This document shows positions 1,659 to 52,740 of a stretch of 64,000 nucleotides of DNA, in pieces. This DNA comes from Salipiger pentaromativorans (GTDB lineage: Bacteria; Pseudomonadota; Alphaproteobacteria; Rhodobacterales; Rhodobacteraceae). The position numbers were made by a program, and so were the translations under genes. The stretch spans positions 209,862 through 273,861 of the forward strand of contig NZ_JAMDHK010000004.1 of NCBI RefSeq assembly GCF_024721115.1. Direction: 5' to 3'. The notes beneath the pieces are model-generated. The model had not been told where the DNA came from. It worked only from the letters and a program-made list of their open reading frames with translations, and searched no databases. The first letter of the stretch is position 1. Every line of letters begins with the position of its first letter.

Positions 1659-2297
1659 TTACGACATCCGCCGGACGCTCATCGAGATATGGGCGCGGCG
1701 GATGAGGGCCGCAGCCTGGGTGTCGCCCGCGCGCAGCGCCGTCCGGGTTTCACGCATCTCGCTGAGAAAGATCGCGCATTCGTCGGCCAGATCCATATGG
1801 GGGATGGATTTCAGCCAGATCCGCGCGGTGCGGTAATACAGCCGTTCGCTGATCTCGCGCAGCGCGGGGTTGCCGGTCAGCGACAGGCCGAAACCGTGAT
1901 AGTCCATATTGAGCTGGGCAAAGGCGCGGGCCTCCGGCGTGGCCAGAAGGGCCTGGCCCCGACGCACAAAGCTTTGCATCTCGTTCAGAACATGGGGGGT
2001 TACCGGCAGCGGGTCGAGCGTGCCCGCAAGCTGCGCCAGTTCCAGCCGCAGCGCATAGACCTGCGCCATCTCGCCGATCTCGACATCGGTGACCAGCGTG
2101 CCGACGCCGTGGCGGCTTTCCAGCAGCCCCTCGTCTTCCAGCCGGGCCAGCACCCGGCGCAGCGGCGTGCGCGAGGTGCCGAATTCCTCGGCCAGCGCGG
2201 CCTCGGAGAGCCGCGTGGCCGGCGGGTAGTCGAGCAGGCAGATACGCGCGCGCAGCTCCGCGTGCAGACGCTGGAACCGCAGCGTGGCACCGCTCAC
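1659..2297 (-). CDS. GntR-family transcriptional regulator with FCD domain
   Basis: A DNA-binding repressor or activator of about 212 residues. The N-terminal winged helix includes ARICLLDYPPATRLSEAALAEEF followed by GTSRTPLRRVLARLEDEGLL, the textbook GntR helix-turn-helix. The C-terminal half is a helical FCD ligand domain. The GTG at 2297 overlaps the TGA of the upstream argE-type gene (GTGA), so the two are translationally coupled; an upstream ATG at 2339 would overlap more. As the last gene of a hydrolase operon it is the natural candidate to regulate that operon and the divergent importer, probably through the TTGTGTACAA site at 4686-4695. Confidence 0.85.
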   Translation of the reverse strand: MSGATLRFQRLHAELRARICLLDYPPATRLSEAALAEEFGTSRTPLRRVLARLEDEGLLESRHGVGTLVTDVEIGEMAQVYALRLELAQLAGTLDPLPVTPHVLNEMQSFVRRGQALLATPEARAFAQLNMDYHGFGLSLTGNPALREISERLYYRTARIWLKSIPHMDLADECAIFLSEMRETRTALRAGDTQAAALIRRAHISMSVRRMS

Positions 2298-3448
2298 GCG
2301 GCGACGCTCCGCGCCACGCCCTCCAGCATGGTCAGACATTGCGAGAGCTGGTCGCGCGAGACGTATTCGTCGGGCTTGTGCGCCTCGTGGATCGAACCGG
2401 GGCCGCAGACCACGACCGACATGCCCATCTCCTGGAACAGCCCCGCCTCGGTGCCGAAGGGCACCACGTCGCAGGTCTCGTTGCCGGTGAGCTGCGCCAC
2501 CAGATCGCGCGCGGCGTTTTCGGGCAGCGGCTCCAGACCGGCGACCTCGCCGATCACCTGGGTTTCGATGCGGGCGGCAGGGTTCACCTTGCGCATGGCG
2601 GGCAGCAGCTCGGTCTCGACATAAGCGTGCAGCGCCTCCTTGACGAAACCGGCGTCGGCCTCCTGCATCGGGCGCATTTCCCAGTCGACCTCGGCGAAAC
2701 CGGGGATCACGTTATGCGCGACACCGCCGTAAAGCCGGCCGACATTGACCGTGGTCCAGGGCGGATCGAAGCGCGAATTCGCGGGCACGCGGGTTTTCAG
2801 CTGCTCCGCCAGCGCCATGAGGCGCGTGACATAGCGCACCGCGTATTCCACCGCGTTCACCCCGCGCTCGGGCGCCGAGCCATGGCCCTCCATCCCGTGG
2901 AACCGGCAGGTATATTCGCAGCAGCCCTTGTGGCCCTCGATGATCCGCATCTCGGTGGGCTCGCCGACGATGGCCATGCGCGGCGCGTAGCCGCGTTTCT
3001 GCAACTCGGGCACCAGCGCGCGGGCGCCCATGCAGCCCACCTCCTCGTCATGGGTGAAGCAGAGATGCACGGGGCGTTTCAGCGGCGTTTCGGCCAGCGG
3101 ATCGGCCATGGCGATGGCGGCGGCGATGAACCCCTTCATGTCGCAGGCGCCGCGCCCGTGCAGCCGGTCGTCGCGCTCGCTGAGCTGGAACGGGTTGGAA
3201 TGCCAGACCTGATCGGTGACCGGCACAACATCGGAATGGCCCGAAAGCACCACGCCGCCCGGCACGTCCGGGCCGATGGTGGCGAACATGTTGGCCTTGG
3301 CGCCGGAGCTGTCGGCAAACAGCTCGACCCTGGCGCCGTGATGCTCCAGCCGGTCGGCCATCCAGGCCATCATGTCGAGATTGCTGTCGCTCGACACGGT
3401 GGGAAAGGAGATGAGCTCGGCGAGGATCGCTTCGGTGGCTTTCAGCAT
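2294..3448 (-). CDS. argE: M20-family deacetylase, acetylornithine deacetylase (ArgE) type
   Basis: A zinc metallohydrolase of 384 residues. Visible M20 landmarks are LSGHSDVVPV (first metal His/Asp), GRGACDMKGF, THDEEVGCMGA (catalytic Glu pair), IVGEPTEM and the C-terminal GPGSIHEAHKPDEYV histidine. The dimerisation domain EGHGSAPERGVNAVEY lies between them. ArgE proteins remove the N-acetyl group from ornithine or related diamino acids. Its place directly after a DoeA-like hydrolase and opposite a diamine-type importer suggests a catabolic role, such as deacetylating N-acetyl-diaminobutyrate, rather than arginine synthesis. That substrate is an inference. Confidence 0.85.
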   Translation of the reverse strand: MLKATEAILAELISFPTVSSDSNLDMMAWMADRLEHHGARVELFADSSGAKANMFATIGPDVPGGVVLSGHSDVVPVTDQVWHSNPFQLSERDDRLHGRGACDMKGFIAAAIAMADPLAETPLKRPVHLCFTHDEEVGCMGARALVPELQKRGYAPRMAIVGEPTEMRIIEGHKGCCEYTCRFHGMEGHGSAPERGVNAVEYAVRYVTRLMALAEQLKTRVPANSRFDPPWTTVNVGRLYGGVAHNVIPGFAEVDWEMRPMQEADAGFVKEALHAYVETELLPAMRKVNPAARIETQVIGEVAGLEPLPENAARDLVAQLTGNETCDVVPFGTEAGLFQEMGMSVVVCGPGSIHEAHKPDEYVSRDQLSQCLTMLEGVARSVAA

Positions 3449-7513: not shown

Positions 7514-9151
7514 ATGACCGACGCAACCGGAGACGGCAGCCAGTCCGGCCCGATGCTGGCCGCAGACGGCACACCGCTGAAAAAAAGCCTGGCCCGCGCC
7601 CTGCGCATGCAGAAGATGCGCGCGCTGATGCTGATCGCGCCGCTGCTGCTCTTTGTGCTCGTCACATTCATCGCCCCGATCGCGGACATGCTGTTCCGCT
7701 CGGTCGAGAACCAGATCGTCTCGGACACGATCCCCAACACCACCGCCGTTCTGGAAGAGTGGGATGGCGAGGGTCTGCCCCCCGAGGCGGCGTTCGAAGC
7801 GGCCTATTACGACATTTTCCTCGCGGCGGAGCGCAAGGAGCATACCAAGCTCGGCACCCGCCTGAACTACGAGCTGACCGGCGCCTCCTCGCTGTTCCGC
7901 AAATCGGGCCGCGGGCTCGACGACATCGGCGAGGTCTATCAGGACCAGTTCAAGGATCTCGACCGCGACTGGGACGAGGCAGAACCCTGGGCCGAGCTGA
8001 TGGGCGATCCCGCCTGGCTTTCCGCACAGGCCGCCTGGACGAAAGGCGAGCGACAGCCGGCCTTCGCCCTGCGTGACGGGGTTTCCGACATCCTGCCCAA
8101 GACGGCCCGCGAATATGCCGTCTTCGCCCGCTATCAGCAGACCGAAGAGAACAAGAGCCCGCTCAAGGAAGAGCCTTGGACGGCGGTGCATACCGCGCTT
8201 TACGAAGACCTGAAGGCAGGCGACCTGTCGGGCTATACCGGCCCGCGCGCCGAGATGCTCAAGGCCGCCGACGCGCTGGTCGACAGCCCGGATTTCGAAA
8301 CCATCACCTTCCAGGCCGGGTTCGAGGACATCGACGAGGACTGGCTGGCGCCGGACATCTGGCGCACCATCAAACTTTACAGCTCCAGCTACACTTCGGG
8401 CTACTTCCTGAACTCGGTGGACATGCAGTTGACCCCGGACGGCCCTGAGGCGCGTCCCGAGAACGAGCGGATCTATATGCTGCTCTTCCAGCGCACGCTG
8501 TTCATGTCGCTGGTGATCACGTTCAGCTGCATCCTGCTGGGCTATCCGGTCGCCTATATCCTGTCGAACCTGCCGTCGCGCACCGCCAACCTGCTGATGA
8601 TCCTGGTGCTTCTGCCCTTCTGGACCTCGCTGCTGGTGCGGACCTCGGCCTGGAAGGTCATGCTGCAGCAGCAGGGCGTCATCAACGACGTGCTGGTCTG
8701 GCTGGGGCTGGTCGCCGACGATGCCCGTCTGGCGATGATCAACAACCAGTTCGGCACCATCGTGGCGATGACCCACATCCTGCTGCCCTTCATGATCCTG
8801 CCGATGTTCTCGGTGATGTCTACCATTCCGCATTCTTACGTGCGGGCCGCGAAATCGCTGGGCGCGACCAACTGGACGACCTTCTGGCGGGTCTATTTCC
8901 CGCAGTCGGTGCCGGGGATCGGCGCGGGGTCGATCCTCGTGTTCATCCTCTCCATCGGTTACTACATCACGCCCGAGATCGTCGGCGGCACCACCGGGAC
9001 GTTCATCTCGAACCGGATCGCCTATCACATCTCCTCGTCGCTGAACTGGGGCCTCGCGGCCGCGCTGGGGGCGATCCTTCTGGCGGTGGTTCTGCTGCTC
9101 TACTGGGCCTACGACAAGATCGTCGGCATCGACAACGTGAAGCTGGGGTAA
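7514..9151 (+). CDS. ABC importer permease, PotB-like, with a large periplasmic insertion
   Basis: A 545-residue inner-membrane permease. Transmembrane segment 1 is at about 38-60 and the remaining segments lie between about 328 and 535. The coupling EAA motif is SYVRAAKSLGATNWTTFWRVYFPQSVPGI-like (441-469). Between segment 1 and the core is a charged, helix-rich stretch of about 265 residues (61-325) that ordinary PotB proteins of about 280-300 residues lack; topology places it in the periplasm. The ATG at 7514 is preceded by a purine-rich ACGGGGA site; the longer upstream frame crosses the intergenic hairpin. It works with the PotC-like partner 4 bp downstream. Confidence 0.88.
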   Translation: MTDATGDGSQSGPMLAADGTPLKKSLARALRMQKMRALMLIAPLLLFVLVTFIAPIADMLFRSVENQIVSDTIPNTTAVLEEWDGEGLPPEAAFEAAYYDIFLAAERKEHTKLGTRLNYELTGASSLFRKSGRGLDDIGEVYQDQFKDLDRDWDEAEPWAELMGDPAWLSAQAAWTKGERQPAFALRDGVSDILPKTAREYAVFARYQQTEENKSPLKEEPWTAVHTALYEDLKAGDLSGYTGPRAEMLKAADALVDSPDFETITFQAGFEDIDEDWLAPDIWRTIKLYSSSYTSGYFLNSVDMQLTPDGPEARPENERIYMLLFQRTLFMSLVITFSCILLGYPVAYILSNLPSRTANLLMILVLLPFWTSLLVRTSAWKVMLQQQGVINDVLVWLGLVADDARLAMINNQFGTIVAMTHILLPFMILPMFSVMSTIPHSYVRAAKSLGATNWTTFWRVYFPQSVPGIGAGSILVFILSIGYYITPEIVGGTTGTFISNRIAYHISSSLNWGLAAALGAILLAVVLLLYWAYDKIVGIDNVKLG

Positions 9152-36677: not shown

Positions 36678-39650
36678 TCAGTTCCCTTCGATGCTCAGCG
36701 CCTCGTTCACGAGCGCTTCTTGTTGTGCTTTGTGCTGGCTGGCCAGACCCGTGGCGGGCGAGGCCGAGGTGGCGCGGCCCACGTATCGCGGCCGCTTGTG
36801 GGTGGCGTCGATGCGCCCCAGCACCCATTCGATATTGGGCTCGATGAAGGTCCAGGCGCCCTGGTTCTTGGGCTCTTCCTGGCACCAGATCATCTCGGCG
36901 CCCTTGAAGCGTTCCAGCTCCTTGACCAGCGACAGCGCCGGGAAGGGGTAGAACTGTTCGATCCGCAGAAGATAGACATCGTCGATGCCGCGCGCGTCGC
37001 GCTCTTCCAGCAGGTCGTAATAGACCTTGCCCGCGCACATCACCACGCGCTTGATCTCGGCGTCCGGCTTCAGCTGCGTGTCCGAATGGCCTTTTTCCGC
37101 ATCGTCCCAGAGGACGCGGTGGAAGGAGGAGCCGGTGGTGAAATCCTCGGCATCCGAAACCGCCAGCTTGTGGCGCAGAAGCGATTTCGGCGTCATCAGG
37201 ATCAGAGGCTTGCGGTAGGAGCGGTGAAGCTGACGGCGCAGGATGTGGCAGTAGTTGGCCGGCGTCGAGCAGTTGGCGACGATCCAGTTGTCCTGACCGC
37301 ACATTTGCAGGAAGCGCTCCAGACGGGCGGAGGAGTGCTCCGGTCCCTGGCCCTCGAAGCCGTGCGGCAGCAGGCAGACCAAGCCCGACATCCGCAGCCA
37401 CTTCGATTCACCCGACGAGATGAACTGGTCGAACATGATCTGCGCGCCGTTGGCGAAATCGCCGAACTGGGCCTCCCACAGAACCAGCGCGTTGGGCTCG
37501 GCCAGCGAGTAGCCGTATTCGAAGCCCGACACCGCGTATTCCGAGAGCGCCGAGTCGATGACCTCATAGCGCGCCTGACCTTCGCGGATGTTGTTGAGCG
37601 GGTAGTACCGCTCTTCGTCATCCTGGTTCACGAGACCGGAATGGCGCTGCGAGAAGGTGCCGCGCGTGCTGTCCTGCCCGGCCAGACGCACCGGGTAGCC
37701 CTCGGTCAGCAGCGAGCCGAAGGCGATGCTTTCGGCGGTCGCCCAGTCAAAGCCTTTGCCCTCTTCGAACATCTTCTTGCGGTGTTCGAGGAAGCGGCCC
37801 ACGGTCTTGTGCAGCGGGAAGCCCTCGGGAACGGTGGTCAGGCCCTTGCCGATCTCGGCCAGCGTCTCGGGCTTGATCGCGGTTTCGCCGCGCTGGTAGT
37901 TGCCCTCTTTCTGCTTGTCGAGATGCGACCAGCGGCCATCCAGCCAGTCGGCCTTGTTAGGCTTGTAGGTTTTCCCGGCCTCGAACTCTTCGTTCAGATG
38001 CGCCTGGAACGCGGCCTTCATATCCTCGATTTCGCCTTCGGGGATCAGGCCGTCCTTGACCAGCCGCTCGGTATAGAGCGTCAGCGTGGTTTTCTGCTTC
38101 TTGATGGCCTTGTACATCACCGGGTTGGTGAACATGGGCTCATCGCCTTCGTTGTGACCGAAGCGGCGGTAGCAGAAGATGTCGATGACCACGTCCTTGC
38201 CGAATTTCTGGCGGAACTCGGTGGCCACCTTGGCGGCGTGCACCACGGCCTCCGGGTCGTCGCCGTTGACGTGGAAGATCGGCGCCTCGACCACCAGCGC
38301 GTTGTCGGTGGGGTAGGGCGAGGAGCGCGAGAAGTGCGGCGCGGTGGTAAAGCCGATCTGGTTGTTCACCACGATATGGATCGTGCCGCCGGTGCGGTGA
38401 CCGCGCAGACCCGACAGCGCAAAGCATTCCGCCACGACGCCCTGGCCGGCAAAGGCCGCGTCGCCGTGCAGCAGGATCGGCAGCACCTGTCTGCGCTCGG
38501 TATCGCCGAACTGGTCCTGCTTGGCGCGGACCTTGCCCAGAACCACCGGGTTCACCGCCTCGAGGTGCGAGGGGTTGGCGGTCAGCGACAGGTGCACCTT
38601 GTTGCCGTCGAATTCGCGGTCGGAGGAGGCGCCGAGGTGGTATTTCACATCGCCCGAGCCGTCCACGTCCTCGGGCTTGAACGAGCCGCCCTGGAATTCG
38701 TTGAAGATCGCGCGATAGGGCTTCTGCATCACGTTGGCCAGCACCGAGAGGCGGCCGCGGTGGGGCATGCCCACGACGATTTCCTTGAGGCCGAGATTGC
38801 CGCCGCGCTTGATGATCTGCTCCATCGCGGGGATCAGCGATTCACCGCCATCGAGGCCGAAGCGCTTGGTGCCCATGTATTTCACATGGAGGAATTTCTC
38901 GAAGCCCTCGGCCTCGACCATCTTGTTGAGGATCGCCTTGCGGCCCTCGCGGGTGAATTTCACCTCTTTGCCGTAGCCCTCGATCCGCTCTTTCAGCCAG
39001 GAGGATTCCTCGGGGTTCGAGATATGCATGTATTGCAGCGCGAAGGTGCCGCAATAGGTGCGTTTCAGCACGCCCATGATCTCGCGCAGCGAAGCGATTT
39101 GCAGGCCCAGCACGTTGTCGATGAAGATCGGCCGGTCCATGTCGGCCTCGGTGAAGCCATAGGCCTTCGGGTCGAGCTCGGGATGCGGTTCGCGGCCATG
39201 CAGCGCCAGCGGGTCGAGATCGGCGGCCAGATGGCCCCGGATCCGGTAGGCACGGATGATCATCAGCGCGCGGATCGAATCGAGCACGGCGCGCTTGACC
39301 TGATCGTCGGTGAGGCTCACGCCCTTCTCGGCGGCCTTTTCGGCGATCTTCTTGCCGGCGCCCCTGGCCTCTTTCGGCGGCACGGGCATCGGCCATTCGC
39401 CGGTCAGCGCGGCGGTCAGGTCGTCATTGGGGCTCGGCGGCCAGTCGGCGCGCTCCCACGAGGCGCCTTGGGCCTCTTTCTTGACGCTGGTCTCGTCGTC
39501 GCCGAGCGCGGCAAAGAACTCGGCCCAGGCCGCGTCGACCGCATTGGGGTCCTCGGCATAGCGGGCGTACATCTGTTCGAGATATTCCGCGTTCGCCCCC
39601 TGCATGAAGCTGGAGGCATGGAACTGATCGTTCGGGCTTTGATCCGTCAT
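36678..39650 (-). CDS. sucA: 2-oxoglutarate dehydrogenase E1 component
   Basis: A 990-residue ThDP-dependent E1 that decarboxylates 2-oxoglutarate and transfers succinyl groups to SucB. Landmarks: the N-terminal [56 protein letters not shown] (ThDP Mg site with the NNQIGFTT segment) and the C-terminal YPFP region. Length is typical. AGGA lies about 9 bp upstream of the ATG. It is separated from sucD by 170 bp containing a strong hairpin. Confidence 0.97.
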
Positions 39651-39820: not shown

Positions 39821-40705
39821 TCAACCCTTGATCGCTGCCATGACGGCTTCGCCCAGCGTTGCGGGGCTATCGGCCACCACGATGCCGGCGGATTTCATCG
39901 CTTCGATCTTCGACTCCGCGTCGCCCTTGCCACCGGCGACGATGGCGCCCGCGTGGCCCATGCGGCGGCCCGGAGGGGCGGTGCGGCCGGCGATGAAACC
40001 GGCGGTCGGTTTCCAGCGGCCCTTTTTCTTCTGCTCGGCGAGGAAAGCGGCGGCTTCCTCTTCGGCGGAGCCGCCGATTTCACCGATCATGATGATCGCT
40101 TCGGTCTCGTCGTCGTCGAGGAACATGTCCAGCACGTCGATATGCTCGGTGCCCTTGATCGGGTCGCCGCCGATGCCCACGGCCGAGGACTGGCCAAGGC
40201 CCAGATCGGTGGTCTGCTTCACGGCCTCATAGGTCAGCGTGCCCGAGCGGGACACGACGCCCACCTTGCCGCGCTTGTGGATGTGGCCGGGCATGATGCC
40301 GATCTTGCAGGCGTCCGGCGTGATGACACCGGGGCAGTTCGGGCCGATCAGCCGCGAGCCGGAATCGACGAGGGCGCGCTTCACGGTCATCATGTCGAGG
40401 ACGGGGATGCCCTCGGTGATGCAGATGATCAGCTCGACCTTGGCGTCGATGGCTTCGAGGATCGAATCCGCGGCGAAGGGCGGCGGAACGTAGATCACCG
40501 AGGCATTGGCACCGGTCACATGCACGGCCTCGTGGACCGAGTTGAAGACCGGCAGGCCGAGATGCTCGGTGCCGCCTTTGCCGGGGGTCACGCCGCCGAC
40601 CATCTTGGTGCCGTAGGCGATGGCCTGTTCGGAGTGGAAGGTGCCCTGCGAGCCGGTGAAGCCCTGACAGATGACTTTGGTATTTGCGTCTACGAGGACA
40701 GCCAT
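39821..40705 (-). CDS. sucD: Succinyl-CoA synthetase alpha subunit
   Basis: A 294-residue subunit carrying the phosphorylated active-site histidine ([12 protein letters not shown]) and the CoA-binding Rossmann fold ([20 protein letters not shown]). With SucC it converts succinyl-CoA to succinate with nucleotide triphosphate formation. A small membrane-protein gene separates it from sucC, which is unusual. Confidence 0.97.
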
Positions 40706-42280: not shown

Positions 42281-42550
42281 GAAAGAATCTTCCCGTCTTG
42301 CTGCGATTTCGTTGCCGGTATACCCATGCATAGCGGCCTGCGTTAAACGAAATATCGCGAGGTCCCTCGAATTGCGAGGAAATTCTGCCTTTTGTGATCA
42401 CGCTTTTCGGAGCTGTGATCACAAAATCAAATCGTGTTTGTCTGATGTTAGCGGCGTCACGGAAGAATCACCGTTCCGCTGCGCTTCGGCCCCACCGTTT
42501 GGTGCATGGCGGAGGGCGGGAACGAAGGAAAAACGGGCGGAGGGCGCTGC
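42281..42550. promoter_or_regulatory. Divergent region between sucC and the glycosyltransferase gene
   Basis: 270 bp with no gene, AT-rich in 42300-42460. It carries the paired GTGATCAC operator (42390-42426). A -10/-35 pair for sucC is not obvious. Confidence 0.5.
42390..42426. promoter_or_regulatory. Paired TGTGATCAC palindromes upstream of sucC
   Basis: Two copies, TGTGATCACG (42393-42402) and TGTGATCACA (42414-42423), with centres 21 bp apart. They lie within a 12-bp inverted repeat (TTTTGTGATCAC and GTGATCACAAAA) separated by 13 bp. Almost the same arrangement lies before sdhC (48560-48589). Confidence 0.7.
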
Positions 42551-43603
42551 GTGGACTATCTCGAGAGATCGGGACCGGACCGGATAGACCGGGAGGCGGT
42601 GCCGGTGGTGGCGCTGGTGCACAACGAGGCGAATATCCTGCCGGCGTTCCTGGCGCATTATCGCGGTCTGGGCCGGGTCACCTTTCTGATCGTCGACGAC
42701 CGCTCGACCGATGGCACGGCCGCGCTTTTGGCGGCGCAGCCGGATGTCACGGTTTTCCGTCCGGTCGAGGGGTCGAGCTATCGTGCGCACAAGGCGCTGT
42801 GGCGGTCGCAGCTTCTGGATCGCTATGCGGATGGGCGCTGGTGTCTGGTGCCCGATCTCGACGAGCATTTCGTCTTCGCGGGCCAGCCCGGGCTGTCGCT
42901 GGAGGGCTATATCGCAGCGCTCGAAGGCGAGGGGGCGCAGGCGGTGGCGACGCTGATGATCGACATGTATGACGACCGGCCGCTGGGCGAGCACATCTTT
43001 CCGGACGGTCAGGGGCGCAGCCTGACTGAGAGCTTTCCCTATTTCGATGGCCCGGCGCCGTTCCCCGAAGGCTATGCCCTGCGCCCGGTGACGCGCGCGA
43101 CGCTGAAACGGTTTCCGACGCCGCCGGTGGCCTTTGTCGGCGGGGCCCGGCACCGTCTGTTCTATCCGCGACCCACCCCGTCCGGTCCGGTCTCGCGCTG
43201 GGTCGCGTCGCATCGGTTCGGTTTTGACGGGGCGGTGAATGCCCGGCCGGGGCGGCTGGCGCGTTCGGTGGCGAAACGGCTCTTCGCGGGCACGCTGAAC
43301 TGCACGAAGCTGGGGCTGCTGCGCTGGCGGCGGGGCTGGCAGTTCAACGGCGGCGCGCACAAGCTGGATGCGGCGATCCCGATGTCCGAGAGCATCGCGG
43401 CCTTTCTGCATTACCCCTTCACCCGCGGGCGCGAGGGGATCGAATATATCGCGAAACGGGGGCAGCACGCCGATGGTTCGGGCCATTACAAGCGGTTGCT
43501 GGATGGGGAGGGGCTGGCGCAGTCGCCGGTCTATGCCGGATCCAAGCGCTATACCGGGCCCGAGGCGCTGGCCGGGCTGATCCGGGGCGTGCCGGGGCGC
43601 TAG
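42551..43603 (+). CDS. Glycosyltransferase family 2-like protein
   Basis: A 350-residue protein with VPVVALVHNEANILPAFLAHYR, the nucleotide-binding LIVDDRSTDGTAALLAAQ block and the PDLDEHFVFAG segment (DxD-like), as in GT2-type (Glyco_tranf_2_4) enzymes that act on cell-surface glycans. The start is taken as GTG 42551 because GGAGGG lies 6 bp upstream; an in-frame ATG at 42506 has no ribosome site. Acceptor and donor sugars are unknown. It converges with mdh. Confidence 0.8.
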   Translation: MDYLERSGPDRIDREAVPVVALVHNEANILPAFLAHYRGLGRVTFLIVDDRSTDGTAALLAAQPDVTVFRPVEGSSYRAHKALWRSQLLDRYADGRWCLVPDLDEHFVFAGQPGLSLEGYIAALEGEGAQAVATLMIDMYDDRPLGEHIFPDGQGRSLTESFPYFDGPAPFPEGYALRPVTRATLKRFPTPPVAFVGGARHRLFYPRPTPSGPVSRWVASHRFGFDGAVNARPGRLARSVAKRLFAGTLNCTKLGLLRWRRGWQFNGGAHKLDAAIPMSESIAAFLHYPFTRGREGIEYIAKRGQHADGSGHYKRLLDGEGLAQSPVYAGSKRYTGPEALAGLIRGVPGR

Positions 43604-43615
43604 GCGCGCCCCGGC
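43591..43615. terminator. Bidirectional hairpin between the glycosyltransferase gene and mdh
   Basis: A perfect 10-bp GC stem (43591-43600 with 43606-43615) and loop TAGGC. It includes the stop codon of the plus-strand gene and lies 9 bp past the mdh stop. No T-run follows, so it is a tentative terminator. Confidence 0.4.
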
Positions 43616-43623
43616 GAAAGCTC

Positions 43624-44607
<984 letters not shown>

Positions 44608-44858
44608 TCATGAATTCCGCCGCTTGCGTAAGGGTTTGCCCGGGCGCGCGCAAGGGCGCTGCGGGGCAGCGATGCGCGGGGGCGCCGGGGGGCAGGCGGA
44701 AATGATGGCGCTAAAGACAAGAAAATCGAGAGCTTAGCCCACGCCGGGCCCGGCGATGCGCGGGATCTGTTTTCAGCCCGCCAAAGGCGGGTGGGCGGGG
44801 GCCGGATCCGCAAATCCGCCGCTTGTGCGGCGGGGCTGTCGATTCTCGCGGTGGCCGG

Positions 44859-45176
44859 TCAGGCATCGCTTTCGGGGGCGGGAAGCGCCTCGGCCAGCGG
44901 CTCGAACGCCTGACCGCTGGCGACCAGACAGGTCAGCCCCGCCGGAGAGGTGACGGTGATCGTCCAGGTGCCGGTCTCGGCCGAGGCGAACACCTCCATC
45001 ACCGCGTTGTTGCTGCCCAGCCCGATGCTCTGCCGCGTTTCGCCGTATTTCGAGGCCAGCTTCTCGATCACCTGCGCGCGGGGGGCACAGGTCGCGGTCT
45101 GCGCGCGGGCCTGCCCCGCGGGCACCGCCCCCAAACAGGCCACCAAACCCGCCATGACTGCCATCGTCCGTTTCAT
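44859..45176 (-). CDS. Small secreted hypothetical protein
   Basis: 105 residues with signal peptide MKRTMAVMAGLVACLGAVPAGQARAQ. The mature part carries two cysteines (CAPRAQVIEKLASKYGETR and LTCLVASG) and reads GTWTITVTSPAGLTC, which suggests a small periplasmic domain. I do not recognise the family. The ATG at 45176 is preceded by AAAGGG-like sequence; the longer frame contains basic non-conserved residues. It is divergent from mcl2. Confidence 0.7.
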   Translation of the reverse strand: MKRTMAVMAGLVACLGAVPAGQARAQTATCAPRAQVIEKLASKYGETRQSIGLGSNNAVMEVFASAETGTWTITVTSPAGLTCLVASGQAFEPLAEALPAPESDA

Positions 45177-45483
45177 CGCTTTGCCCTTTCGGCTGTCGCG
45201 CCAGGAGGTCGCGCGGGCTTTGCCGCGCCTCCCGCGCCGGTCGTGCCCTCGGCTCTGGGTTGGCTTCGCTCCCCGGGGATGCGAACGCAGGTCCGAACCC
45301 CTGTCAAAAGCCTGCGGAGAAAACCCAAAGGATTGGTTAAGGCACCGGGACAGCCGTGCCGGTCGCGCCGGAAACGCGTCGGAAACCGGCTTTTTTCTGC
45401 GACGCGGCGCTTCTCCTCTTGCACTTTTCGCAAAAAACTGGCCTCTACCGCGCAACATTATTTCTTCGAAACGGAGGAGACTC
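45177..45483. promoter_or_regulatory. Intergenic region upstream of mcl2
   Basis: 307 bp between divergent genes. It shows no clear ORF or motif. The only obvious signal is the ACGGAGGAG ribosome site at 45470-45478 before mcl2. Confidence 0.3.
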
Positions 45484-46335
45484 ATGGATCTCACGATGCG
45501 CCCCTACCGCTCGGTGCTCTATATTCCCGGTTCCAAGGACCGTGCTCTGGACAAGGCGCGCGGCCTGCCGGTGGATGCGATCATCTTCGATCTCGAAGAC
45601 GCGGTCTCGCCCGGCGAAAAGCCCGCGGCGCGTGCCACCCTGGCCGCTGCGCTGGCGCAGGGCGGCTATGGCAAGCGGACCAAGATCGTGCGGATCAACG
45701 GGTTCGACACCGAATGGGGCGAGGCCGATGCCAAGGCCGCCAACGATATGGACTGCGACGCGGTGCTGCTGCCCAAGGTGGAAAGTACCGATCAACTCGA
45801 CGCGCTGGCCAGGCTGACGGACAAGCCGCTCTGGGCGATGATGGAGACGCCCAAGGGCATGCTCAATGCCGCCAGTATCGGCGCGCATCCACAGCTCATG
45901 GGCATGGTGATGGGCACCAACGATCTGGCCAAGGAGCTGAACTCGCGCTTCCGCGCCGACCGGCTGCCGATGATGGCCTCGCTGGGCATGTGCCTGCTGG
46001 CAGCCAAGGCCACCGGCTGCGTGATCGTCGACGGCGTCTATAACGCCTTCAAGGACGACGCGGGGCTCAAGGCGGAATGCGATCAGGGCCGCGACATGGG
46101 TTTTGACGGCAAGACGCTGATTCACCCCGCGCAGGTCGAGATCACCAACGCCGCCTTTGCGCCGACCGAAGCCGAAATCGAGCTGGCCAAGCGCCAGATC
46201 GCCGCCTTTGAAGAGGCCGAGAAGGCCGGGCAGGGCGTTGCCGTGGTCGATGGCAAGATCGTCGAGAATCTGCATGTGGCGACCGCGCAAAGCCTGCTGG
46301 CCAAGGCGGATGCCATTGCCGCGCTGAGCGAATAA
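45484..46335 (+). CDS. mcl2: (3S)-malyl-CoA thioesterase, CitE/HpcH family
   Basis: A 283-residue TIM-barrel protein of the CitE family. MRPYRSVLYIPGSKDRALDKARGLPVDAIIFDLEDAVSPGEK is the CoA- and Mg-binding start; LLPKVESTDQLD and MMETPKGMLNAASIG supply metal residues. It is shorter and different in the start motif from malyl-CoA lyase Mcl1, and fits Mcl2 of Rhodobacter sphaeroides, which hydrolyses malyl-CoA made from acetyl-CoA and glyoxylate. Location near mch and sdh supports this. A plain citrate-lyase-beta-like activity cannot be excluded. Confidence 0.82.
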   Translation: MDLTMRPYRSVLYIPGSKDRALDKARGLPVDAIIFDLEDAVSPGEKPAARATLAAALAQGGYGKRTKIVRINGFDTEWGEADAKAANDMDCDAVLLPKVESTDQLDALARLTDKPLWAMMETPKGMLNAASIGAHPQLMGMVMGTNDLAKELNSRFRADRLPMMASLGMCLLAAKATGCVIVDGVYNAFKDDAGLKAECDQGRDMGFDGKTLIHPAQVEITNAAFAPTEAEIELAKRQIAAFEEAEKAGQGVAVVDGKIVENLHVATAQSLLAKADAIAALSE

Positions 46336-46383
46336 AGGCAGTCTGGCCGGGTATCGACACGCAAGGCACCAAAGGAGTTCTTT

Positions 46384-46929
46384 ATGGTCCTGCTGATCCT
46401 CGGCGTGCTGCTCTGGGCGGGCGCGCATCTGTTCAAACGGGCCGCGCCCGCGCAGCGCGCGGCGCTTGGCGACAAGGGCAGGGGCGCCGTTGCGCTGGCG
46501 CTGCTCGTCTCCGTCCTGCTGATGATCTTCGGCTATCGCATGGCCGATGGCGCGGCGTTCTGGGGCCGGGATCCGGCAACGGTGGGCATCAACAATCTGC
46601 TGATGCTGGCGGCGCTCTATTTCACCTCGCCTGGGCCGAAGAAAGGCGCGCTGTTCTACCGGATGCGCCACCCGATGCTGACCGGGTTCCTGCTCTGGAC
46701 GGTGGCGCATCTGCTGGTCAACGGCGACGTGCCGAGCTTTGTGCTGTTCGGCGGGCTGGGGCTCTGGGCCATTGTCGAGATGGGGGTCATCAACCGCGCC
46801 GAACCGGACTGGACCCCGCCGGAAAAGGGGCCGATCCGGAAAGACCTGATCTTTCTGGCCGCCAGCCTTGTCCTGCTTTTCGTCATTGGCTGGGTGCACA
46901 CCTGGCTTGGCTACCCCACCTTCGGATAA
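46384..46929 (+). CDS. NnrU-family membrane protein
   Basis: A 181-residue protein with about five transmembrane helices and the NnrU signature RHPMLTGFLLWTVAHLLVNGD. NnrU-type proteins were first noted near nitric-oxide reduction genes and resemble steroid-reductase/methyltransferase membrane folds; the reaction is unknown. The gene lies 48 bp after mcl2. Its TAA overlaps an in-frame alternative ATG of the DUF1737 gene. Confidence 0.85.
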   Translation: MVLLILGVLLWAGAHLFKRAAPAQRAALGDKGRGAVALALLVSVLLMIFGYRMADGAAFWGRDPATVGINNLLMLAALYFTSPGPKKGALFYRMRHPMLTGFLLWTVAHLLVNGDVPSFVLFGGLGLWAIVEMGVINRAEPDWTPPEKGPIRKDLIFLAASLVLLFVIGWVHTWLGYPTFG

Positions 46930-46943
46930 TGTCTGGGACCGCT

Positions 46944-47147
46944 ATGAAACTCTACCGCTTTCTGACCGAGGACGACACCTCGGCCTTCTGCCACAAGGTC
47001 ACCGCCGCGCTGAACAAGGGCTGGGAGCTGCACGGCCAGCCGACCTATGCCTTTGACGCCGCCAACGGGGTGATGCGCTGCGGTCAGGCCGTGGTGAAAG
47101 AGGTGGAGGGCACCTACACCCCCGAGACCAAACTGGGAGAGCACTGA
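46944..47147 (+). CDS. DUF1737 small protein
   Basis: 67 residues, matching the DUF1737 pattern MKLYRFLTEDDTSAFCHKVTAALNKGWELHGQP, then MRCGQAVVKEV. Function unknown. The ATG at 46944 starts the family pattern; an ATG at 46929 would add five residues. Its TGA shares one base with the mch ATG (TGATG), implying coupling. Confidence 0.8.
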   Translation: MKLYRFLTEDDTSAFCHKVTAALNKGWELHGQPTYAFDAANGVMRCGQAVVKEVEGTYTPETKLGEH

Positions 47148-48178
47148 TGGCCAAGACCAATCCGGGACGTTTCTTCGAAGATTATGCCATCGGTCAGGTG
47201 ATCGACCACGCGGTGCCGCGCACCGTCTCCACGGGCGAGCGGGCGCTTTATCACGCGCTCTACCCGGCGCGGCATGCGCTTTATTCCTCGGACGAATTCG
47301 CGCGTGCCAGCGGGCTGCCGGAAAGCCCGATCGACGATCTTGCGGCCTTCCATGTGGTGTTCGGCAAGACCGTGCCCGACATCTCGCTGAACGCGGTGGC
47401 CAATCTGGGCTATGCCGAAGGGCGCTGGCTGACCCCGATCTATGCGGGCGACACGCTGCGGTCGTCGTCCGAGGTGATCGGGCTCAAGCAGAACTCCAAC
47501 GGCAAGAGCGGCGTGGTCTATGTGCGCACCACCGGCACCAACCAGCGCGGCGAGACCGTGATGGACTATTGCCGCTGGGTGATGGTGAAGAAAAACGATC
47601 TCGACGCGCCCGCGCCCGAAACGGTGATCCCCGAGCTGAAGACGGTGCTGACGCCCGAGGATCTGGCAGTGCCCGAGGGGCTGAGCTTCGAGAATTACGA
47701 TTTCACCCTGGCGGGCGAGCCGCATCGCTGGGGCGATTATCAGGTGGGCGAGACCATCGACCATGTGGACGGCGTGACCATCGAAGAGGCCGAGCACATG
47801 ATGGCGACTCGGCTCTGGCAGAACACATCCAAGGTGCATTTCGATTCCACGATCCGGCCCGACGGGCAGCGGCTGATCTATGGCGGGCATGTGATCTCCA
47901 TGGCGCGCGCGCTGAGCTTCAACGGGCTGGCCAATGCGCAGATGATCGTGGGGCTGAACGGCGGGGCGCATGCCAACCCCTGCTTCTCGGGCGATACGGT
48001 CCGCGCCTGGACCGAGGTGCTGGACAAGGCCGACACCCCGGCGCCGGGCGTGGGGGCCATCCGCCTGCGGCTGGTCGCGACCAAGGGCGGGGCGCCGTTC
48101 GAGCTGAAAGGCGAGGACGGGAAATACCTGCCTAACGTGCTGCTGGACCTCGATTATTGGGCGCTTATGCCGCAGTGA
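47147..48178 (+). CDS. mch: Mesaconyl-CoA hydratase (MaoC-type)
   Basis: A 343-residue double hot-dog-fold dehydratase. The first MaoC-like half is GRFFEDYAIGQVIDHAVPRTVSTGERALYHALYPARHALY; the second has GGHVISMARALSFNGLANAQMIVGLNGGAHANPCFSGDTV. Length and motifs match the mesaconyl-C1-CoA hydratase of the ethylmalonyl-CoA pathway, which hydrates mesaconyl-CoA to methylmalyl-CoA. The neighbouring mcl2 and sdh genes support it. Translation is coupled to the DUF1737 gene. Confidence 0.88.
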   Translation: MAKTNPGRFFEDYAIGQVIDHAVPRTVSTGERALYHALYPARHALYSSDEFARASGLPESPIDDLAAFHVVFGKTVPDISLNAVANLGYAEGRWLTPIYAGDTLRSSSEVIGLKQNSNGKSGVVYVRTTGTNQRGETVMDYCRWVMVKKNDLDAPAPETVIPELKTVLTPEDLAVPEGLSFENYDFTLAGEPHRWGDYQVGETIDHVDGVTIEEAEHMMATRLWQNTSKVHFDSTIRPDGQRLIYGGHVISMARALSFNGLANAQMIVGLNGGAHANPCFSGDTVRAWTEVLDKADTPAPGVGAIRLRLVATKGGAPFELKGEDGKYLPNVLLDLDYWALMPQ

Positions 48179-48275
48179 TCGGCGCCCCGGCGTTAACGAT
48201 TTCGTCGCAAATGCGACCCCGCTCCGGTACACTTGGAGCGGGAGGAGATTCGTTTCTGCCATCAGAGGGTTCGCC

Positions 48276-48479
48276 ATGCCTGCCACCGATCTGCCGCACG
48301 GAACCGAAGACGTTCTGGCCCTGCCTGTCCGGGACATTCCCGATACGATCAGCGATCTGGTCAAGTGCCGCAAATTCAGCGGGCTGGTCAGCAGCATCCA
48401 CCGCGACATCCGCTCGCCGGATCCGGCGCTGCGCGACAAGGGCGCGCTGGCGCTGAAGCGGCTGGGGTTTCCCGACTGA
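48276..48479 (+). CDS. Small hypothetical protein
   Basis: 67 residues, soluble, no recognised domain. It begins MPATDLPHGTEDVLALPVRD and ends KRLGFPD, with a helical centre (SIHRDIRSPDPALRDKGALALKRL). AGAGGG lies 8 bp before the ATG. It is followed by the region with the sdh operators. Function unknown. Confidence 0.6.
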   Translation: MPATDLPHGTEDVLALPVRDIPDTISDLVKCRKFSGLVSSIHRDIRSPDPALRDKGALALKRLGFPD

Positions 48480-48707
48480 GCCGCCGTCCTGTCGCATCTC
48501 GCAGCGACAGAATCAAATTCCGGCACATATTCTGCACTGCGGAATGTTAGCGTCCGATATGTGATCACACTTTTTCGGGTGTGATCACATTTTTGCTTAT
48601 TTTTTCAAAAAGCGATCAAAAAACGCGCCTGCCATGCATGCACCGGCGTGACATGAGGCCCGGAAACCCGCTAGAACCCTGCCACGAGGGAACCGAAAGG
48701 ACACGCC
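48480..48707 (+). promoter_or_regulatory. Promoter/operator region of the sdh operon
   Basis: 228 bp. It holds the hairpin CTGTCGC/GCGACAG (48489-48510), the paired operators (48560-48589), and an AT-rich run (48590-48625) that is probably the promoter. I cannot choose a specific -10. Confidence 0.55.
48560..48589. promoter_or_regulatory. Paired TGTGATCACA palindromes upstream of sdhC
   Basis: Two identical perfect palindromes TGTGATCACA (48560-48569 and 48580-48589), centres exactly 20 bp apart, about two helical turns. The spacer CTTTTTCGGG resembles the CTTTTCGGAG spacer between the sucC copies. Confidence 0.75.
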
Positions 48708-49103
48708 ATGGCCGAAGAGACCCGGATCGAGCGCCCGCTCTCCCCCTTCATGATCGGGCCGTATTATCGACCGCAGCTCACTTCGATGAGCTCCATCCTC
48801 ACTCGCATCACCGGAAACGCTCTGATCGTCGGCACGCTGCTGATGGTCTGGTGGTTCCTGGCGCTTGCCGCGGGGCCGGAATACTTTGAAACCGCCGAAT
48901 GGTGGATTACCTCCTGGGTGGGCAATCTCATCATGTTCGGCTCGCTCTGGGCCATCTGGTATCACTACCTGGCCGGGCTGCGTCACCTGATCTTCGACGC
49001 GGGCAAGGGGCTCGACATCAAGACCGCCGAAAAACTCGGCTGGGCCTGCATTTACGGCTCCGTGGCGCTGACCGTCGCGACCGTGATCATCTACTGGATC
49101 TGA
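48708..49103 (+). CDS. sdhC: Succinate dehydrogenase cytochrome b556 subunit
   Basis: A 131-residue membrane anchor with three transmembrane helices (about 29-50, 66-88, 110-130). The motif RPLSPFMIGPYYRPQLTSMSSILTRITG matches the RPLSPHL.IYR...TS..SI.HRITG quinone-site region, and the conserved heme-ligand-type HYLAGLRHLIFDAG is present. Note FM instead of HL in the first motif. AAAGGA precedes the ATG. First gene of sdhCDA-(two lipoproteins)-sdhB. Confidence 0.94.
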   Translation: MAEETRIERPLSPFMIGPYYRPQLTSMSSILTRITGNALIVGTLLMVWWFLALAAGPEYFETAEWWITSWVGNLIMFGSLWAIWYHYLAGLRHLIFDAGKGLDIKTAEKLGWACIYGSVALTVATVIIYWI

Positions 49104-49508: not shown

Positions 49509-51314
49509 ATGGCTGCATACGAATACGAGACGCATGATTATGACGTCGTGGTGGTCGGGGCAGGGGGCGCTGGCCTTCGCGCCACGCTCGGCATGGCGGA
49601 GCAGGGGCTGCGCACGGCCTGCGTGACCAAGGTCTTCCCGACGCGTTCGCACACCGTCGCCGCGCAGGGCGGCATCGCGGCGTCGCTGTCGAACATGGGC
49701 CCGGACAACTGGCAGTGGCACATGTACGACACCGTCAAGGGCTCGGACTGGCTCGGCGACACCGACGCGATGGAATATCTCGCCCGTTCGGCGCCCGCCG
49801 CCGTCTACGAGCTGGAGCATTACGGCGTGCCCTTCTCGCGCACCGAAGAGGGCAAGATCTATCAGCGCCCGTTCGGCGGCCACACCACCGAATTCGGCGA
49901 AGGCCCGCCCGTGCAGCGCACCTGCGCCGCGGCCGACCGCACCGGCCACGCCATCCTGCACACGCTTTATGGCCAGTCGCTCAAGAACAACGCCGAGTTC
50001 TACATCGAATATTTCGCCATCGACCTGATCATGTCCGATGACGGCGTGTGTCAGGGCGTGGTCTGCTGGAAACTCGACGACGGCACCTTCCACGTCTTCA
50101 ACGCCAAGATGGTCGTGCTGGCCACCGGCGGTTATGGCCGCGCCTATTTCTCGGCGACCTCGGCCCACACCTGCACCGGCGACGGCGGCGGCATGGTGGC
50201 CCGTGCGGGGCTCGCGCTTCAGGACATGGAATTCGTGCAGTTCCACCCGACCGGCATCTACGGCTCGGGCTGCCTGATCACCGAAGGCGCGCGCGGCGAG
50301 GGCGGTTACCTCACCAACTCCGAGGGCGAGCGCTTCATGGAGCGTTACGCGCCGACCTACAAGGACCTCGCACCGCGCGACTATGTCTCGCGCTCGATGA
50401 CCATGGAGATCCGCGAGGGCCGTGGCGTGGGCGAGCATGGTGATCACATTCACCTGAACCTGTCGCACCTGCCCGCCGAAGCGCTGGCCGAACGCCTGCC
50501 GGGCATCTCGGAAAGCGCCAAGATCTTTGCCGGTGTGGACGTGACCAAAGAGCCGATCCCGGTTCTGCCGACGGTGCACTACAACATGGGCGGCATCCCG
50601 ACCAACTACTGGGGCGAGGTGCTGAACCCGACCGCCGACAACCCGAACGCCGTGGTTCCGGGTCTGATGGCCGTGGGCGAGGCGGGCTGCGCCTCGGTGC
50701 ACGGGGCCAACCGTCTCGGCTCCAACTCGCTGATCGACCTCGTGGTCTTTGGCCGCGCCGCCGCCATTCGTGCCGGCAAGGTGGTCGACAAGGACGCACC
50801 GAAGCACGCGCTGAACCAGCCGTCGGTGGATGCAGCCTTTGACCGGTTCGACGGGCTGCGCAACGCCAATGGCAGCACGCCGACCGCCGAGCTGCGGCTT
50901 GAGATGCAGCGTACCATGCAGTCCGATGCGGCGGTGTTCCGCACCGACAAGACCCTCAAGGAAGGCGTCGTGAAGATGACCGAGATCGCCGGCAAGATGG
51001 GCGACCTCAAGGTCACCGACCGCTCGCTGATCTGGAACTCGGATCTGATGGAAACGCTGGAGCTGACCAACCTCATGCCCAACGCGCTGGCCACCATCGT
51101 GGGCGCCGAGGCGCGCAAGGAATCCCGCGGGGCGCATGCCCACGAGGATTATCCGACGCGCGACGACGAGAATTGGCGGGTCCACACCATCAGCCGCGTC
51201 GAGGGCACCGAGGTCACGCTGAGCCATCGTCCGGTGATCCTCGATCCGCTGACCACCGAGGAGCAGGGCGGCATCAGCCAGGCCAAGATCGCGCCGAAGG
51301 CCCGGACCTTCTGA
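49509..51314 (+). CDS. sdhA: Succinate dehydrogenase flavoprotein subunit
   Basis: A 601-residue subunit with covalently bound FAD. The N-terminal [20 protein letters not shown] is the FAD motif; [17 protein letters not shown] has the FAD-linked His. The active-site motifs [25 protein letters not shown] and [21 protein letters not shown] follow. It oxidises succinate at the cytoplasmic face. The ATG at 49509 begins [12 protein letters not shown]; the longer frame overlaps sdhD. Its stop overlaps the next lipoprotein ATG (CTGATG). Confidence 0.97.
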
Positions 51315-51960: not shown

Positions 51961-52740
51961 ATGGTTCAATTCACACTCCCCAAGAACTCCAAGATCCGTA
52001 CGGGCAAGACCTGGCCGAAGCCCGAGGGCGCGACCAATGTCCGGGCGTTTAAGATCTACCGCTGGGATCCCGATACCGGCGAGAATCCCCGTGTCGATAC
52101 CTACTATCTCGACATGGACAAATGCGGGCCGATGGTGCTGGACGCGCTGATCAAGATCAAGAACGAGATCGACACGACCCTGACCTTCCGTCGTTCCTGC
52201 CGTGAAGGCATCTGCGGCTCCTGCGCGATGAACATCGACGGGATCAACACGCTGGCCTGTATCTACGGGCTGGACGAGATCAAGGGCGATGTGAAGATCT
52301 ACCCGCTGCCGCATATGCCGGTGGTCAAGGACCTGATCCCCGATCTCACGCATTTCTATGCGCAGCACGCCAGCATCATGCCCTGGCTTGAAACCAAGAC
52401 CAACCGCCCCGAGAAGGAGTGGAAGCAGTCCATCGAGGACCGCAAGAAGCTCGACGGTCTTTATGAATGTGTGATGTGCGCGTCGTGCTCGACCGCCTGC
52501 CCGAGCTACTGGTGGAACTCCGACCGCTATCTCGGCCCGGCGGCACTGCTGCACGCCTACCGCTGGATCATCGACTCGCGCGACGAGGCGACGGGCGAGC
52601 GTCTGGACGGGCTGGAAGACCCGTTCAAGCTCTATCGCTGCCACACGATCATGAACTGCACCAAGACCTGCCCGAAAGGTCTGAACCCGGCGAAGGCCAT
52701 CGCCGAGATCAAGAAGATGATGCTGAACCGCCACGTGTGA
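51961..52740 (+). CDS. sdhB: Succinate dehydrogenase iron-sulfur subunit
   Basis: A 259-residue electron-transfer subunit. The 2Fe-2S ligands are in [16 protein letters not shown](I)NTLAC; the 4Fe-4S and 3Fe-4S ligands are in [16 protein letters not shown] and [21 protein letters not shown]. It links SdhA to the membrane quinone site. It is the last gene of the operon and is followed by a terminator. Confidence 0.97.

Follow-up and report, generated by a model that had tools for sequence, protein, structure and literature searches.

Phased palindrome pairs upstream of sucC and sdhC in Salipiger pentaromativorans are probable operators of the tricarboxylic acid cycle regulator AkgR

Genes of the tricarboxylic acid (TCA) cycle lie within a 64,000-nucleotide stretch of the genome of Salipiger pentaromativorans (Rhodobacteraceae; assembly GCF_024721115.1, contig NZ_JAMDHK010000004.1, positions 209,862 to 273,861), hereafter called the window. 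They include suc genes on the reverse strand and sdh genes on the forward strand, and upstream of both sucC and sdhC stands a pair of 10-bp palindromes built on the core GTGATCAC (Table 1). Two copies of TGTGATCACA form the sdhC pair, and TGTGATCACG together with TGTGATCACA forms the sucC pair, which is embedded in the inverted repeat TTTTGTGATCAC...GTGATCACAAAA (42390-42401 / 42415-42426); each palindrome is centred on GATC. The original prediction, made from the letters of the window, described both arrangements with centres 20 and 21 bp apart and saw in them a paired operator common to the two TCA operons. The paired palindromes are real and were confirmed at the positions tabulated, and the interpretation that was put on them is partly supported.

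Table 1. Palindromes, genes and candidate promoter elements around the two pairs, in window coordinates.
Feature	Position	Strand	Remarks	Basis
Palindrome TGTGATCACG	42393..42402	.	promoter-proximal site of sucC pair	sequence and motif counts
Palindrome TGTGATCACA	42414..42423	.	distal site of sucC pair; centres 21 bp apart	
Palindrome TGTGATCACA	48560..48569	.	distal site of sdhC pair	
Palindrome TGTGATCACA	48580..48589	.	promoter-proximal site of sdhC pair; centres 20 bp apart	
sucC, succinyl-CoA synthetase beta, 397 residues	41087..42280	-	start codon to nearer GTGATCAC 113 bp	name by sequence reading
sucD	39821..40705	-		name by sequence reading
sucA (2-oxoglutarate dehydrogenase E1)	36678..39650	-		name by sequence reading
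sdhC	48708..49103	+	nearer GTGATCAC to start codon 119 bp	name by sequence reading
sdhA	49509..51314	+	likely start is an internal Met of the listed open reading frame	name by sequence reading
sdhB	51961..52740	+		name by sequence reading
Putative -35 GTGACA of sdhC	48648..48653	+	59 bp past last GTGATCAC	predicted function
Putative -10 region GCTAGAAC of sdhC	48670..48677	+		sequence; predicted
Putative upstream promoter element TTTAAC of sucC	42342..42347	-	~46 bp past pair	predicted
Putative -10-like TATACC of sucC	42317..42322	-	weak	sequence; predicted

Both the palindrome and its core are in excess in the window. With at most one mismatch, TGTGATCACA occurs five times where 0.96 are expected, a count reached by none of 100 shuffles, and GTGATCAC occurs six times where 0.94 are expected, a count reached by one of 100. 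Outside the pairs the core is present at 50440-50447, inside sdhA, and at 8513-8520, the latter a copy overlooked when the former was described as the only other one. Across the 5.28-Mb genome, two cores separated by 8 to 13 bp (GTGATCAC-N8..13-GTGATCAC) are confined to the regions upstream of sucC and sdhC, one place each, and a reversed-pattern control has no match. Of the six genomic copies of the full palindrome TGTGATCACA, three belong to the pairs and two fall within coding sequences (a maf-like gene and an ABC-2-type permease gene, both named by reading); the sixth stands 10 bp before a GntR-family gene. The spacers of the two pairs, which had been thought alike, are so on the forward strand; in the direction of the genes, sucC being read from the reverse strand, they are roughly reverse complements, and they vary across genera (A+T of the central part 66% at sdhC and 77% at sucC).

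The pair is widespread in the family. It is present in 266 of 295 family genomes, representing 294 genera, and the reversed-pattern control gave no match in any of the 295; a hand tally found exactly two copies in about 205 genomes, one in 49 and three or four in 12. A class-level draw of 385 genomes (five of the same family and 380 others) yielded the pair in ten, that is, in all five family members and in five of the others, with control matches in a single genome outside the family (G367), five times. In the fetched family loci, pairs stand at 119 distinct places; the script output gives 120 because one at a locus edge was counted twice. A scan of related genomes for pairs before TCA genes had been proposed, and its outcome is favourable: 110 of the 114 pairs with a 12-13 bp gap lie within 300 bp before sucC (60), sdhC (49) or sucA (1), the last in G177, a genome with a rearranged cluster. 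Of the remaining four, one precedes a fumC-like gene, one falls within a coding frame and two (L147 and L155) have no explanation, and the five fetched family pairs whose gap is 8 or 10 bp all lack suc or sdh genes as neighbours. Spacing is tightly kept, with a gap of 13 bp in 93 of 105 distinct suc and sdh regions and of 12 bp in the other 12 (mismatches allowed for G040), which places the centres 21 or 20 bp apart, and a third site continues the row at a 21-bp period before sucC in three (G135, G191 and G285) of the ten genomes with three or four pairs that were examined. When two mismatches were allowed, 24 of the 29 pair-negative genomes gave matches and the control matched in one (G172); among the matches listed, all but that of G040 look like scattered chance.

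It had been supposed that no established regulator is known for this site, and this proved wrong. One study gives GTGATCAC as one of the sequences bound by AkgR, which it describes as a transcriptional activator in Rhodobacter sphaeroides (PMC6365646), and another predicts that RSP_0981, a GntR regulator of the same species, controls succinyl-CoA synthetase (suc), 2-oxoglutarate dehydrogenase (odh) and succinate dehydrogenase (sdh; PMC4344238). The palindrome GTGATCAC is present in the target promoters here as it is there (motif attribution from the accessible part of PMC6365646), and the targets, the suc/odh and sdh operons, match the regulon prediction (accessible part of PMC4344238). The genome that carries the pairs also encodes an orthologue of RSP_0981. 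This protein, P0001, is a 217-residue GntR/FCD protein encoded on another contig than the pairs (G000:C2:10389-11042), and both of its domains score above curated cut-offs (GntR PF00392, 48.6 bits, cut-off 27; FCD PF07729, 64.6 bits, cut-off 24.3). We take RSP_0981 to be AkgR and refer to the P0001 gene as akgR. RSP_0981/AkgR is reportedly a direct activator of TCA genes in R. sphaeroides, as described in 2015 by Imam, Noguera and Donohue (mBio 6:e02461-14).

The TGTGATCACA copy 10 bp before a GntR-family gene precedes the ATG of akgR; no other genomic copy lies clear of both the pairs and coding sequence. As the original prediction stated, no regulator gene adjoins the operators in the window; in R. 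sphaeroides (G051), which has pairs before sucC and sdhC, the orthologue of P0001, which shares 78% identity with it across residues 6-215, is encoded some 0.75 kb behind sdhB, where RSP_0981 is expected, that locus tag having been assigned from position beside sdh and GntR family membership rather than from annotation. In that genome a published 24-base chromatin immunoprecipitation site lies at 2222951, inside the chromosome 1 position 2222600-2223600 given in the report (PMC4344238), a match that identifies G051 as R. sphaeroides. The two species differ in that akgR of S. pentaromativorans is on another contig than sdh and has a site of its own, whereas the R. sphaeroides gene is without one.

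Orthologues of P0001 (called at E<=1e-70, with co-occurrence tallied by hand from two tables) are present in 259 of the 266 pair-positive family genomes and in 6 of the 29 pair-negative ones. All six are soft exceptions: one-mismatch pairs are present in G040 and G291, G061 and G155 lack a sucC match at E<=1e-100, and completeness is 73% for G147 and 71% for G166. At E<=1e-70 the class draw gave orthologue matches in all five family genomes and in none of the 380 others, where the best were about 38-41% identical. Among 15 distant AkgR homologues fetched from outside the family, six (L323, L325, L326, L327, L331 and L339) have GTGATCAC no more than 400 bp upstream of the aligned start, at 36-40 bp in L323 and L325. 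In one of the five outsiders with a pair (L039, 991-1021), the pair has 21-bp spacing and is followed after about 0.15 kb by a GntR gene whose product shares 28% identity with AkgR.

The single site at akgR is itself conserved. It precedes 40 of 49 akgR orthologues: all 30 of the closest have it, as do 10 of the 19 that rank lower in the list or were chosen for gene order. A second set, of 80 named loci that are the closest relatives in its search, has the site in 79, and some species may be common to both sets. In 31 of the 40 and 70 of the 79, a TTGAC element starts 17 bp before the start of the site. Such a position suggests autorepression of akgR. One of the 40 genomes, G187 (L125), has two GTGATCAC cores 13 bp apart before akgR.

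The pairs are placed quite differently with respect to the promoters they precede. Of 50 sdhC upstream regions, 43 contain a -35-like GTGAC[AT] (22 of the first 24, compared with 6% of shuffled sequences), and in 37 of the 50 it has a -10-like partner. The partnered element starts 57-60 bp after the pair in 32 of the 37; the other five start at 48, 69, 78, 79 and 80 bp, about -1, +1 and +2 helical turns from the main position. Such phasing, with a post hoc figure of 0.008 and a pattern that was widened after the data had been seen, would be expected of an activator that must face RNA polymerase. At sucC, a weaker element, CGTTT, lies 44-46 bp after the pair in 18 of 55 upstream regions.

Collectively, these observations make it very probable that the pairs are operators of AkgR, which would activate suc and sdh from upstream, and that the single akgR site would limit the level of AkgR. 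One AkgR dimer would occupy each 10-bp palindrome TGTGATCACA. Upstream of the sucC and sdhC promoters, two dimers would face the same side of the helix at a distance of two helical turns and would activate from this class-I-like position, perhaps under the influence of a signal sensed by AkgR. A pair of cooperating dimers about two turns apart had been proposed already; the spacing agrees with it, and cooperativity is plausible. At akgR a dimer on the single palindrome, at the likely promoter and just before the start codon, would block transcription, and AkgR would thereby limit its own amount. We give an even chance to a more general rule, that one regulator has opposite outcomes set by the number and place of its sites, phased double or triple sites far upstream activating suc and sdh and a single site, in most cases 17 bp downstream of where the TTGAC element starts, shutting the regulator's own promoter. 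This site-number layout is kept across most of the family and was not found in the accessible parts of the literature searched.

Several points weigh against this reading. In this organism the role of AkgR is a prediction from sequence. The Fisher value for the co-occurrence of pairs and orthologue (p 8e-23) overstates the evidence, since genera are not independent samples. Seven pair-positive genomes have no clear orthologue: G033, G096, G264 and G273 are 73-77% complete, and G019 (91%), G114 (100%) and G256 (93%) are more complete. Seven of the 50 sdhC regions are without GTGAC[AT] and 13 are without a partnered -10; unpartnered extra copies of the element fall off phase at 15, 51 and 86 bp, each in a region that also has one in phase; and the narrower promoter pattern used at first recovered 8 of 24 sdhC promoters and was widened after the sequences had been seen. 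The sucC promoter is weakly resolved, and the akgR site is absent from 9 of the 19 less close or specially chosen orthologues, that of R. sphaeroides included.

It is conceivable, if unlikely, that AkgR binds the pairs and represses suc and sdh, for instance through looping or by obstructing a promoter upstream. Repression is common among other FCD/GntR regulators, and the position of the single akgR site is one at which a repressor could work. However, in most partnered sdhC regions the pair ends clear of the promoter, in the others it is displaced by about whole helical turns, and AkgR is termed a transcriptional activator in the accessible text of PMC6365646. A paralogue of the GntR/FCD type might instead be the main binder: the GntR DNA-binding family is represented by 39 matches in the genome, a related Pseudomonas regulator has been proposed to use GTGATCAC (PMC6365646, accessible part), and six of the 15 distant homologues outside the family have the core upstream. 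This too seems improbable, and more so than repression, as the lone TGTGATCACA outside pairs and coding sequence precedes the P0001 gene, the P0001 orthologue is linked to sdh in R. sphaeroides, and its presence tracks that of the pairs, a co-occurrence that was computed for P0001 alone.

There is very little to recommend a dimer of the CRP/FNR family on TGTGA...TCACA. These are CRP half-sites, and the usual CRP operator has the form TGTGA-N6-TCACA; here, however, the half-sites abut with a gap of 0 bp in place of 6, which the original prediction also took to rule out a normal CRP dimer, and no two in a pair stand at CRP spacing. Furthermore, R. sphaeroides is not predicted to have CRP-analogous proteins, according to the accessible text of PMC4344238. 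Hardly any weight attaches, finally, to chance or to a structural feature of the DNA such as a GATC methylation site: GATC does occupy the centre of every palindrome, but neither would readily account for a pair found in nine-tenths of the family genomes, absent as a reversed control, and placed almost always before sucC, sdhC or sucA.

Other features of the locus and its relatives were noted. A glycosyltransferase-like gene (42506-43603, forward strand; named by reading) lies between mdh and sucC, divergent from sucC, and because the intergenic region is common to both, the sucC pair could possibly affect this gene as well; in several relatives mdh takes its place beside sucC. In G042, a further 21-bp pair is found directly before a fumC-like gene (L139, G042:C16, ~3293-3323), which suggests that the regulon includes fumarase in some genera. 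A GntR-family gene is present within the window itself (L070, ~2091-2270, reverse strand), about 40 kb from the operators, and was dropped as the candidate regulator because the only TGTGATCACA outside pairs and coding sequence adjoins another GntR gene. Beside each pair stands one copy of the element ATGTTAGCG (42445-42453 and 48544-48552), and the window holds no third (expected 0.17); the element presumably resembles half of a CceR-type (LacI) site. Co-regulation by CceR was nevertheless rejected: GTTAGCG/CGCTAAC is found within 150 bp upstream in 2 of 50 sdhC and 3 of 55 sucC regions, downstream in 5 of 50 and 4 of 55, and in about 3% of whole-stretch shuffles, a weak enrichment in relatives, and the full CceR consensus gave one three-mismatch match elsewhere, at chance level.

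Paired short palindromes before carbon-metabolism genes are also a feature of the short-chain acyl-CoA regulators PccR/ScfR of R. sphaeroides, although palindrome, spacing and protein family all differ from those described here. Closer in protein family is PS417_07240 of Pseudomonas simiae, a GntR regulator 32% identical to AkgR and likewise proposed to use GTGATCAC; however, it belongs to a catabolic (deoxyribonate) cluster rather than to the TCA cycle, and a single site, spanning -47 to -40, is given for it in the accessible text (PMC6365646). A doubled site is not mentioned for AkgR in the accessible parts of the literature searched, the primary AkgR report of 2015 lying outside that scope. 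The operator is real and well conserved, and most likely belongs to an already described regulator; what is added here is its doubled and phased layout, its family-wide spread and the autoregulatory site, which the primary AkgR paper may have described before.

A seemingly orphan operator thus gains a named regulator. The distribution of pairs and orthologues indicates that control of the TCA cycle by AkgR extends from the one model species in which it is known widely through the family, and no further within the sample searched. The contrast between the pairs and the akgR site also provides a testable design rule, by which paired and phased upstream sites would mean activation and a single promoter site would mean autorepression.

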